Shown here in pieces: positions 37,817-42,348 of a stretch of 64,000 nucleotides of DNA. Origin of the DNA: Nitrospirota bacterium (GTDB lineage Bacteria; Nitrospirota; Thermodesulfovibrionia; Thermodesulfovibrionales; SM23-35). The position numbers and the translations under genes are program-made. Location: contig JACAFF010000008.1 in the NCBI GenBank assembly GCA_013388455.1, forward strand, positions 1-64,000, read 5' to 3'. Within the stretch, counting starts at the first letter, position 1; every line of letters begins with the position of its first letter. The notes beneath the pieces are model-generated. The model had not been told where the DNA came from, made no database searches, and was given only the letters and a program-made list of their open reading frames with translations.

Positions 37817-39229
37817 TTAAATGTCGTAATAAAGGAAAAATTCGTATGGATGCGGTCTGAGTCTTAGCGCGTCGACTTCTCTTGTTCTCTTGTATTTAAG
37901 CCACATATCTATAACATCTTCTGTAAAAACATCTCCTCTTTTGAGAAAACTGTGGTCTCTCTCAAGGCAGTCAAGAGCATCCTCAAGTGAGCCTGGAAGG
38001 CTTGGAACTTTTGCAAGCTCTTCAGGACCGAGTTCGTATATATCCTTGTCGAGTGGTTCTCCTGGATCAATCTTGTTCTCTATTCCATCAAGTCCGGCCA
38101 TTAGCATTGCGGAGAAGGCAAGATATGGATTACAAGATGGATCAGGAAACCTTACCTCAATTCTTTTAGCTTTGGGGCTTGGAGAATACATTGGTATACG
38201 TATTGCAGCAGACCTGTTTCTGCTTGAATATGCAAGATTTATTGGCGCCTCATAGCCAGGCACAAGCCTTTTATAAGAATTTGTTGTTGGAGCGACAAAA
38301 GCAGCAAGCGCAGAAGCATGTTTGAGAATACCGCCAATGTAGTAAAGTGCCATGTCTGACAACCCAGCATATCCATTGCCTGCAAACAAAGGTTTACCAG
38401 CTTTCCAGAGGCTCTGGTGTGTGTGCATGCCCGAACCATTGTCACCAAAGAGTGGTTTTGGCATCAGAGTTACTGTTTTGCCATTCCTCAGAGCAACATT
38501 CTTAATGATATATTTATACATCATCAGTTTATCTGCCATATTTACGAGAGGTGAAAATCTCATATCAATTTCGCACTGCCCGCCGGTTGCAACTTCGTGG
38601 TGCTGAGCCTCAACTTCAATACCAGCCTTTTCAAGCTCAATTACCATTTCTGTGCGGATATCTTGCAGTTTGTCCATAGGTGGAACTGGGAAATATCCTT
38701 CTTTATGCCTTGGTTTGTATCCAAGATTAGGACTCTCCTGTCTTCCTGAATTCCAGATACCTTCAATAGAATCAACATAGTAATATCCGCTGTTTGCTGT
38801 CTGGTCGAATCGCACATCATCAAAAATGAAAAATTCTGCTTCAGGGCCGAAATATGCAGTATCAGCAATTTTTGTTGATTTCATGTATGCCTCAGCTTTT
38901 TGAGCAATATAACGAGGATCTCTTGAATAAGGTTCTTTGGTAATCGGGTCAACAACATTGCATATTATGCTGAGTGTAGGGTGCTGGGTAAACGGATCGA
39001 GTACCGCTGTTGAAGGATCAGGTATAACAAGCATGTCACTCATGTGTATAGCCTGCCATCCCCGTATTGATGAGCCATCAAACCCGAGTCCATCTTCAAA
39101 CAAGCTTTCTGTAAGTTCTTTTGTCGGAACAGAGAAATGTTGCCATAGACCAGGAAAATCCATAAATTTAAGGTCAATCATAACAACGTTGTTCTTTTTT
39201 GCAAATTCCTTTACTTCTTTTGGTGTCAT
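37817..39229 (-). CDS. glnA: Glutamine synthetase type I
   Basis: The 470-residue enzyme condenses ammonia and glutamate using ATP. Visible are the D-fold [19 protein letters not shown], the metal and ammonia sites ([22 protein letters not shown]-like ATGGQCEID) and [12 protein letters not shown], plus [21 protein letters not shown] tyrosine in DIYELGPEE near residue 398 sits at the adenylylation position of GSI-beta enzymes. An ATG at 39244 is possible, but the one at 39229 has GGAGG 8 bases upstream. A sigma-54-like site and paired palindromes lie upstream. Confidence 0.95.
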
Positions 39230-39282
39230 AACAGATGCCTCCATAATAGTTAGATTTTTACTCTCTTCACCTCAGATTTATT

Positions 39283-39299
39283 ATCTAAAATCATGCCAG
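39283..39299 (-). promoter_or_regulatory. glnA: Sigma-54-like promoter element of glnA
   Basis: On the minus strand CTGGCATGATTTTAGAT resembles the -24/-12 consensus: the -24 GG is perfect within TGGCATG, but the -12 dinucleotide is GA instead of GC. It would give a leader of about 40 bases before the ATG at 39229. Confidence 0.4.
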
Positions 39300-39363
39300 G
39301 ATGTAACATATTGATATATATGAATATTTTTTATTATTTAGCATTTCTATTTTTTATTTAGCC

Positions 39364-39375
39364 TACAATTATGTA
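39364..39375. promoter_or_regulatory. Single operator-like palindrome upstream of glnA
   Basis: TACAATTATGTA lies at the centre of CCTACAATTATGTAGG. It resembles the boxes of the paired module at 39451-39479 and sits 65 bp upstream of the sigma-54-like element. Confidence 0.45.
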
Positions 39376-39442: not shown

Positions 39443-39487
39443 ATGTTTGCTACAAATTTGTAGTTAATACAATTTTGTAGCAAACAT
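39443..39487. promoter_or_regulatory. Paired palindrome module upstream of glnA
   Basis: Two boxes, TACAAATTTGTA (39451-39462) and TACAATTTTGTA (39468-39479), are 5 bp apart. They lie within a larger inverted repeat whose 14-bp arms ATGTTTGCTACAAA and TTTGTAGCAAACAT match perfectly. The same two boxes in the same order occur at 42319-42348. Such an arrangement suggests the binding site of a dimeric regulator. The larger repeat could also fold in the glnB transcript, which ends 36 bp away. Confidence 0.55.
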
Positions 39488-39522: not shown

Positions 39523-39879
<357 letters not shown>

Positions 39880-41250
39880 TTACAGGCTATATGCCTTTTC
39901 GCCATGCTGACTCTCGTCAAGTCCTGTAATCTCGTGTTCTAAATCGACTCTTATGCCGACAGTAATTTTAATAATACCAAATATTAACAATGTTATTACA
40001 CCGCTGTAAATTATAGTTATAACTACTGCTATAAACTGTTTTAGAAACTGAATCGGATTCCCATAGAGAAGACCTGCGCCAAGTTCATTAACTGAAGGAT
40101 CTGCGAATATTCCTGTCAGTAATGCTCCGAGTATCCCTCCGACACCATGAATACCAAATGCATCAAGAGAATCATCATATCCGAGTTTTGGTTTTATACT
40201 GGCAACTGCGAAGTATGGCACCATGCCAGCAAGTATTCCGATAATAATTGCACCTTTGATATTTACAAATCCTGCTGCAGGTGTTATTGAAACAAGTCCT
40301 GCAACCGCACCTGAGGCAAGACCTAAAACTGTTGGTTTCTTTGCATGTATCCATTCTGTTAGCATCCATGATATGGAAGCAAGTGCTGTTGCTGTGTTAG
40401 TATTAATAAAAGCAATCCCTGCGATACCGTTTGCCGCAACAGCAGATCCTGCATTGAATCCAAACCAGCCGAACCAGAGAAGACCCGCGCCAGTTACAAC
40501 CAGGGTCAGGTTGCTCGGTTTAAGAGATGCCTCACGTCTTTTGCCGAGAACCAGTGCACCGATGAGGGCAGCAATACCCGCATTGATATGGACAACTGTC
40601 CCCCCTGCAAAATCGAGCGCACCTAATTTTGCAAGGAACCCCCCTCCCCATACCCAGTGGGCAACAGGCACATATACTAAAGTCATCCAGAGTATTGTGA
40701 ACAATACCCACGCAGAAAATTTAATCCTTTCGATGAATGCACCGCTTGCAAGTGCAACAGTTATAGCAGCGAAAGTCATCTGGAATACAATAAATATGTA
40801 TTCCGGAACCGTCATTGAAAGGCTGCCAACTCCTACACCTGATAGTAAAATTTTCTCGGGAGCTCCGATGATACCTCTGATATCAGAACCGAATGTAAAA
40901 GTGTACCCATAAAAGACCCATAAAAAACTAACTATGCAGTATGATACAAAAGACATAGCCATAGTATTGAGTGTATCCTTCTTTTTAGCCAGACCACCAT
41001 AAAATAGTGCCAGTCCCGGAAGTGTCATTAGCATAACAAATGCTGTGGCTACAATCATCCACGCAGTGTCCCCTGTATCAATCTTCGGTGTTTCTTCAAC
41101 TGCTGTTACAGCTTCCGGTAAAGGAGCAGACTGAGCAGGCTTTGCCTGCTCAGCTGCTGGAAGGTGTGGAGGGTTAACCAAGTCTTCAGCAAAGGCCCAT
41201 CCGCTTATAAGAGTCAGCGCTAATATTGTTAATGCAATTATATTTTTCAT
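39880..41250 (-). CDS. amt: Ammonium transporter
   Basis: The 456-residue protein has a signal peptide (MKNIIALTILALTLISGWAFA) followed by a Pro/Ala-rich periplasmic stretch and the 11-helix Amt core from about residue 60. Family motifs are FYGGLAKKKDTLNTM, GGFLAKLGALDFAGGTVVHI and DDSLDAFGIHGVGGILG. A cytoplasmic C-terminal tail GLDESQHGEKAYSL, which couples to P-II, is present. AAAGGAG precedes the ATG. It lies between the porin and glnB in one operon. Confidence 0.95.
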   Translation of the reverse strand: MKNIIALTILALTLISGWAFAEDLVNPPHLPAAEQAKPAQSAPLPEAVTAVEETPKIDTGDTAWMIVATAFVMLMTLPGLALFYGGLAKKKDTLNTMAMSFVSYCIVSFLWVFYGYTFTFGSDIRGIIGAPEKILLSGVGVGSLSMTVPEYIFIVFQMTFAAITVALASGAFIERIKFSAWVLFTILWMTLVYVPVAHWVWGGGFLAKLGALDFAGGTVVHINAGIAALIGALVLGKRREASLKPSNLTLVVTGAGLLWFGWFGFNAGSAVAANGIAGIAFINTNTATALASISWMLTEWIHAKKPTVLGLASGAVAGLVSITPAAGFVNIKGAIIIGILAGMVPYFAVASIKPKLGYDDSLDAFGIHGVGGILGALLTGIFADPSVNELGAGLLYGNPIQFLKQFIAVVITIIYSGVITLLIFGIIKITVGIRVDLEHEITGLDESQHGEKAYSL

Positions 41251-41261
41251 CCTATGCTCCT

Positions 41262-42023
41262 TTAAAAGCTCAGAGTTATATTGATGCCACCGTATAAGAT
41301 GTCTTTGTCTTTATCATCGCTATAGCTCTCTATCGCATCCTCTGAGTTATTGCTTATAGGGAATGTATAAGCGATCTTCGGTGTAATCATAATTGCTTTC
41401 CAGACAGGTATATTCATTGAAGATGAAAGTTCGGCATTATAAAAATTATTGAAATCATCTCCATTTTCATCATATCCCATGACCTTGTTGTTTATGTTAT
41501 AGCTTGCAGACGCTCCAAAATTAAGAGATACTCCTTTCAGGACTTCTACAGAATGCCCGATTGATGCTATAATGAAAGCGCCCTGGCCTTCATCAAAGTC
41601 GTAATATAAAATCACCGACGGTTTTAATAATGTGTCATAGCTTGCGGATAAATATAGCTCTTGTGTGTCATTGGTGCCGCTTAAGGCGTAATAGATATAG
41701 CCAGTTCCGAAAATCCACTTATCGATTGATCTTGTGTAGCTCAAAGTAAAGTCGGTTTCTGAAAACTCACCATGTTCATCTCCTTCATCAATTTTCGAAT
41801 CGGAATCATAATTGGTCCAGATATTTACTCCAAAGACCCCATAAGTAATTCCGACCGAGGGCTGAACTACCCAGCTATTGCTCAACTTCTGTCCTCTCCA
41901 TACATAATTGCTCATGACATCTACTGAGGCGCTTCCTGATGTTTTGATATCTTTAGCACAAATACTTCCTGCCATCATTACAGTGATCATTAATGCCAGA
42001 ATTAAAATTTTTAAAATTTTCAT
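41262..42023 (-). CDS. TorF-type outer membrane porin
   Basis: The 253-residue protein has a signal peptide (residues 1-23, ending SICA) and a beta-barrel pattern of alternating strands that ends in the outer-membrane signature ITLSF. The segment SVDVMSNYVWRGQKLSNSW is typical of the TorF/Gcw-chp porin family (TIGR02001). Its place before amt and glnB suggests that it lets ammonium or small nitrogen compounds cross the outer membrane, which is inference. AGGAGGATAAG precedes the ATG. Confidence 0.8.
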   Translation of the reverse strand: MKILKILILALMITVMMAGSICAKDIKTSGSASVDVMSNYVWRGQKLSNSWVVQPSVGITYGVFGVNIWTNYDSDSKIDEGDEHGEFSETDFTLSYTRSIDKWIFGTGYIYYALSGTNDTQELYLSASYDTLLKPSVILYYDFDEGQGAFIIASIGHSVEVLKGVSLNFGASASYNINNKVMGYDENGDDFNNFYNAELSSSMNIPVWKAIMITPKIAYTFPISNNSEDAIESYSDDKDKDILYGGINITLSF

Positions 42024-42058: not shown

Positions 42059-42238
42059 TTAACTTTTAACCTTGAACTCCTCCTTTCTGATATTGTATTT
42101 TTTGACCTTGTATGCAATCATCCTTTCAGTTATTCCTAATTTCTTTGCAGCCCTTGACATGACCCATTTGCATTCCAGTAATGCATTTAATATTTCTTCC
42201 TTCTCGATTTCTTTCAATCTTTCAGTTAGTGACCCCAT
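42059..42238 (-). CDS. Stand-alone Fis/NifA-type HTH DNA-binding protein
   Basis: The minus strand encodes a 59-residue protein beginning MGSLTERLKEIEKEE. Residues 14-50 (ILNALLECKWVMSRAAKKLG and ITERMIAYKVKKYNI) match the C-terminal Fis-type HTH of NifA and other sigma-54 activators, including the ITxRMIAYKxKK recognition helix. There is no receiver or AAA+ domain, and no room for one. It heads the HTH-porin-amt-glnB run, 35 bp before the porin, and lies below a paired palindrome module that also occurs at glnA. No clear ribosome binding site is seen. It could be a remnant of a larger activator, but the frame is clean. Confidence 0.72.
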   Translation of the reverse strand: MGSLTERLKEIEKEEILNALLECKWVMSRAAKKLGITERMIAYKVKKYNIRKEEFKVKS

Positions 42239-42257
42239 TTTGTTGTCTGTAATCTAT

Positions 42258-42274
42258 TACCAAAAACATGCCAA
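42258..42274 (-). promoter_or_regulatory. Sigma-54-like promoter element of the HTH-porin-amt-glnB operon
   Basis: On the minus strand TTGGCATGTTTTTGGTA has the -24 element TGGCATG in common with the glnA site, and GT instead of GC at -12. It lies 20 bp before the HTH start codon. Confidence 0.42.
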
Positions 42275-42318
42275 TTCTAACTTATTGATTTTTATAGGAA
42301 TATAAAGATAAGGTATGC

Positions 42319-42348
42319 TACAAATTTGTAATTATCTACAATTTTGTA
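42319..42348. promoter_or_regulatory. Paired palindrome module upstream of the HTH-amt operon
   Basis: TACAAATTTGTA (42319-42330, a perfect palindrome) and TACAATTTTGTA (42337-42348) are 6 bp apart, about 45 bp above the sigma-54-like element. It duplicates the module upstream of glnA box for box. Confidence 0.6.

Follow-up and report, generated by a model that had tools for sequence, protein, structure and literature searches.

A free-standing NifA-type DNA-binding domain under the sigma-54 enhancer of a Nitrospirota ammonium operon: a possible feedback brake

What does a protein made of little more than the DNA-binding domain of a sigma-54 activator do at the head of an ammonium operon? The question is raised by an ORF on the minus strand at positions 42059-42238 of the window, the 64,000-nucleotide stretch of Nitrospirota DNA analysed here. 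The ORF has an ATG start and comprises 59 codons and a stop. Its product, MGSLTERLKEIEKEEILNALLECKWVMSRAAKKLGITERMIAYKVKKYNIRKEEFKVKS, matched the Pfam family HTH_8 (PF02954) over residues 8-48 with 48 bits against a cut-off of 22. The best partial match among full-length families was the C-terminus of NifA; the NifA equivalog model TIGR01817 scored 32.3 bits, covering the HTH part only and falling below its cut-off of 528.85. The AAA+ domain with a GAFTGA motif that defines bacterial enhancer-binding proteins was absent from the 59-residue protein, which is HTH only. This HTH_8-only match and a length conserved among homologues bore out the initial annotation, which had described a stand-alone NifA-type HTH protein without a sensor or AAA+ domain. 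An AlphaFold2 model (pLDDT 88) predicted helices at residues 4-22, 27-34 and 38-47 and no separate dimerisation helix A; it aligned with the domains of NtrC4, NtrX, 2m8g and NtrC1, among others. The fold alone proves no function for the protein.

The ORF is a complete gene under selection. No frameshifted AAA+ part was found upstream of the ATG; an in-frame stop lies a few codons before it and a sigma-54 promoter just beyond, which ruled out a frameshifted full-length activator. Homologues fused to an AAA+ domain, combined with a frameshift upstream of this copy, had been named as the case against a stand-alone gene, and the search for this combination was negative. Stand-alone homologues were detected in 36 of 61 relatives (our tally), their open frames being about 58-116 codons long. 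A sample of the phylum revealed them throughout the class, in families f1-f21, and also in families f28 and f23 of the phylum; this distribution ruled out a restriction to one genus. Stand-alone forms were found by the genome scan in Nitrospirota only, other phyla being matched with longer activators, and a search for plasmid-borne relatives of the gene returned none. Aligning the homologues, as had been proposed, showed that both the stand-alone length and the neighbourhood are conserved. Ten columns are invariant across 31 aligned copies, including I36-T-E-R, Y43, K47 and Y48. Between close pairs, dN was mostly 5-20 times below dS or lower still (for example 0.009 vs 0.82 and 0.036 vs 1.03), and differences were 2-3 times more frequent at third codon positions than at first and second ones. 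Conservation and dN/dS together ruled out a chance or mis-called ORF. A tree of HTH domains placed the stand-alone domains on one side of a branch and those of the activators on the other (support 97/70, 96% of bootstrap trees), although its 47-column alignment is too short to settle finer branching. The stand-alone domains thereby appear as one old clade across the phylum.

The small gene is the first of a minus-strand series. It is followed by genes encoding a porin-like outer membrane protein (41262-42023), the ammonium transporter Amt (39880-41250) and the PII signal protein GlnB (39523-39861); glutamine synthetase is encoded further on by glnA (37817-39244, minus strand). The amt, glnB and glnA genes were assigned by Pfam and NCBIfam. 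The porin-like protein has homologues in the same place in other genomes, and family searches with the 41262-42023 product gave no significant match. At nearly all loci the stand-alone gene leads an operon of a porin-like protein, amt, glnB and sometimes glnA. In some genomes (L070, L071, L072) the gene is found at least twice, every copy standing ahead of an amt operon. Several genomes encode full-length nifA no more than about 3 kb from the stand-alone gene, in L057 and L060 directly upstream of it. The claim that the protein leads an ammonium operon was thus upheld by its conserved length, its position and the upstream module described below.

The gene had been placed under a paired operator. 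The pair is real and conserved but, judged by its sequence, it is a sigma-54 enhancer, since the palindromes are followed by an IHF-like site and then by a -24/-12 element. In the window, the promoter-distal palindrome TACAAAATTGTA (minus strand, 42337-42348) and the promoter-proximal palindrome TACAAATTTGTA (42319-42330) are separated by N8 between their ACAN4TGT cores. Behind them on the minus strand lie the IHF-like site AATCAATAAGTTA (42278-42290), which has no mismatch to WATCAANNNNTTR, and the predicted sigma-54 promoter TGGCATGTTTTTGGTA (42258-42273). The exact sequence TACAAWWTTGTA has four occurrences in 2.1 Mb, namely the pairs 42319/42337 and 39451/39468. Only a very short stretch separates the -12 element from the ATG in the window copy (42238-42262), which has no clear Shine-Dalgarno sequence; it measures 13-42 and mostly 20-27 bases in homologues, and leaders are only about ten bases long. 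The window's own genome has rpoN and three genes of the HU/IHF family.

The same arrangement recurred among the 43 distinct stand-alone copies taken for locus examination: 41 lie directly behind twin ACAN4TGT palindromes followed by a sigma-54 TGGCA[CT] element. Palindromes at these 41 loci are spaced by 6-11 bases (N8 in 24 cases, N9 in 10), and the distance from the twin site to the sigma-54 element is 43-68 bases, with 45-48 in 38 of them. Mononucleotide shuffling produced twin palindromes with a sigma-54 element in 0 of 2150 trials. Most modules have an IHF-like sequence at a constant position within the spacer; 10 sites are perfect and 18 have one mismatch, against 0.14 and 2.8 expected from shuffled spacers. 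Family f28 (L229-L231) has a twin site with N19-21, about one helical turn more, and f23 is without a recognisable one.

Twin palindromes spaced by 5-14 bases were found at three places only in the window's own genome, each of them at genes of nitrogen assimilation: before the small-gene operon (N8), before glnA (N7) and before a glutamate synthase-nifA operon (N10). The reversed pattern, used as a control, occurred twice. The glnA enhancer consists of TACAATTTTGTA (39468-39479) and TACAAATTTGTA (39451-39462), their cores being separated by N7. A third palindrome with one mismatch, TACAATTATGTA (39364-39375), lies nearer the glnA promoter, followed on the minus strand by an IHF-like site, TATCAATATGTTA (39304-39316), and a sigma-54-like -24/-12 element, TGGCATGATTTTAGAT (39283-39298). 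At the third place, on contig C20 (G000:C20:2395-9258, L143), split glutamate synthase genes (Glu_synthase PF01645 and an NAD(P)-binding subunit) are followed co-directionally by the gene for a NifA-family activator of 506 residues with a GAF-AAA+-HTH architecture (TIGR01817, 576.7 bits vs a cut-off of 528.85). A search for nifH in this genome, whose completeness is 99.4%, found none. Given the absence of nifH and the glutamate synthase genes before it, the C20 protein is probably a regulator of ammonium assimilation here.

Which activator, then, reads the module? HTH-less activators are known. In this genome each of the nine sigma-54 AAA+ proteins has an HTH of its own, so there is no HTH-less activator in need of a detached domain, and a split activator was rejected; two extra PF00158 matches (35 and 30 bits) resemble Clp ATPases. 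Only the C20 protein has a recognition helix similar to that of the stand-alone domain. Its C-terminus is also the nearest relative of the 59-residue protein in this genome, where the stand-alone HTH is closest to that of NifA: it shares with the C-terminal HTH_8 of NifA (TIGR01817) 48% identity over 48 residues and a TxRx-I-x-Y-[KR] helix, as well as ACA/TGT-containing enhancers and sigma-54 promoters. It differs from NifA in lacking GAF and AAA+ domains, in having TERM instead of TPRQ in the recognition helix, and in palindromes spaced N7-9 as against the N10 of nif promoters. NtrX, which the initial annotation had suggested as a partner, is unlikely; the recognition helix of the window's NtrX-like protein, IERSNLHRKI, is unrelated, and similarity is confined to the C20 NifA-family HTH. 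Among relatives, the module is present in 47 of the 53 that have a NifA-like activator and in 1 of the 8 that have none (our tally; Fisher p 3e-5, without correction for kinship); every one of the 36 genomes with the stand-alone gene also has such an activator. The same palindromes are found before nifH in diazotrophic relatives (TIGR01287 confirmed for L149). The likely activator at the module is the product of the C20 nifA gene.

We tentatively hypothesize, at close to even chances, that the 59-residue protein is an autoregulatory feedback brake, which occupies NifA-type enhancers and limits activation. A NifA-type DNA-binding domain would have been set free as a gene of its own, to serve as a feedback limiter of the sigma-54 nitrogen-starvation regulon. 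Under nitrogen limitation, the GAF-AAA+-HTH activator from C20 would bind the twin ACAN4TGT palindromes and, aided by IHF bending, turn on two sigma-54 promoters, that of the HTH-porin-amt-glnB operon and that of glnA. The protein encoded first in this operon lacks AAA+ and would be unable to open such promoters; as it accumulated, it would compete with the activator for the same palindromes, both in front of its own gene and, acting in trans, upstream of glnA and of further amt operons. We infer three elements of this scheme: binding of the twin sites by the stand-alone protein, binding of these sites by NifA, and the negative effect. For a protein made when the enhancer is active, with a NifA-type HTH and no AAA+ domain, competition for the palindromes is the simplest reading.

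At 41 of 43 loci the gene is found beneath the very enhancer that its product would bind, and its usual first-gene position fits autogenous feedback. Autoregulation, already suspected in the initial annotation, is probable in view of the conserved length, position and upstream module; a simple repressor, also considered there, appears too simple for a pair of sites that forms a sigma-54 enhancer. The module precedes amt/PII operons in fifteen relatives that lack the stand-alone gene, which argues that the protein is a modulator and not a required activator. In 12 relatives with the stand-alone gene, a further amt-type operon has the module only; the module would thus be an enhancer that the activator can use without the small protein, and the latter could act in trans. 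Collectively, the sequences show a conserved gene, a conserved module, a three-site regulon, kinship to the NifA domain and a module outlasting the gene. Counting against a brake, TERM and TPRQ differ at expected base-contact positions, so the two domains need not have the same specificity. An isolated NifA domain from which helix A is missing is a monomer whose affinity for its site is low, about 20 μM (PMC10590331). Together with the lack of helix A in the model, this weak binding means that a 59-residue competitor may need a high concentration.

The main rival to the brake is a helper role, which we regard as rather unlikely and which predicts much of the same anatomy, a further point against the brake. 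The stand-alone domain and the activator would bind the twin site jointly, as mixed dimers or cooperative neighbours, raising enhancer occupancy or adjusting the activator to the N7-9 modules of ammonium promoters. Something may indeed distinguish the regulons: across L147-L191, 12 of 13 nifH modules have N10 and ammonium operons mostly N7-9, and 34 of the 41 stand-alone loci have N8-9. The N10 pair at nifH we take to be the classical NifA motif TGT-N10-ACA. A precedent is Fis, which assists the sigma-54 activator LuxO in Vibrio (PMC11407668). The helper would not be required, however, as the N7-9 modules stand before amt operons in the 15 genomes without the stand-alone gene.

Less probable still is a trans repressor acting chiefly on a sigma-70 promoter, for instance that of the glutamate synthase-nifA operon, where it would damp production of the activator. 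The N10 twin palindrome there (G000:C20:9229-9258, L143) overlaps a TTGACA hexamer some 60 bp upstream of the start codon, with no sigma-54 element behind it, and looks like a repression site. The TTGACA overlap is known from one genome only, however, the -10 match was judged by eye, and NifA itself could be the autorepressor at this site. Repression of this promoter would also be compatible with the proposed brake.

A general DNA-bending or nucleoid role like that of Fis, with no specific operator link, is very unlikely. Residues 1-51 of the model aligned with Fis residues 48-98 (Z 8.6, rmsd 1.7, 51 residues), and both are stand-alone HTH_8 proteins. The 59-residue protein nevertheless lacks the N-terminal 47 residues of Fis, with their arm and helix A, has about 24% identity to it, and is tied to a specific module and to one operon type, with amt/PII. 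A bending role, proposed initially, is also less needed than supposed, because the spacer already has an IHF-like site. The idea of a non-functional remnant of an activator gene, for which decayed copies in two relatives could speak, is largely refuted by the low dN/dS, the invariance of helix residues and the single old clade that spans the phylum, and has next to no credit left. The two copies, one with three in-frame stops (L193:876-1010) and one with a broken recognition half (L177), suggest loss of the gene while the promoter module was retained.

Returning to the feedback brake, we consider its extension to the whole class a shade more doubtful than the local proposal. A detached activator domain would be a dedicated autoregulated competitor at sigma-54 enhancers, in effect a natural dominant-negative NifA in ammonium operons, with NifA as a general activator of ammonium assimilation even without nitrogenase. 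Sigma-54 promoters are known for their obligate activators, and we know of little on natural small proteins that brake them by enhancer occupancy. Among the papers searched, we found none that describes ammonium operons headed by a conserved, free-standing NifA-type domain under the presumed activator's enhancer. If correct, the scheme describes a feedback device that is compact and testable, and explains the working of NifA-type control over ammonium assimilation in Nitrospirota, of which no published account was found. It would also be a present-day parallel to the origin proposed for Fis, which the literature derives from an NtrC-family DNA-binding domain.

Detached Fis-type domains as such are already known, in Fis and in NinH of phage lambda. 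NinH, likewise a very small stand-alone Fis-type HTH protein, binds DNA (PMC7166090); it differs in being a phage gene product, a homodimer in solution with contributing residues outside the HTH, and in having no link to sigma-54 enhancers or nitrogen. The response regulators PrrA, RegA and ActR share a Fis-type HTH without AAA+ (1umq) but have a receiver domain, whereas the 59-residue protein has no sensor.

Two further kinds of protein were observed. Contig C18 (G000:C18; L007, L026) encodes a 324-residue sigma-54 activator with an eroded Walker A motif (GENGTYKE), no GAFTGA and an intact HTH; it is possibly inactive and itself a potential antagonist. Activators in another class of the phylum (L224, L225) have an intermediate recognition helix, TPRM, and in L225 glnB lies just upstream of the activator, which may represent a form intermediate between activator and stand-alone protein.
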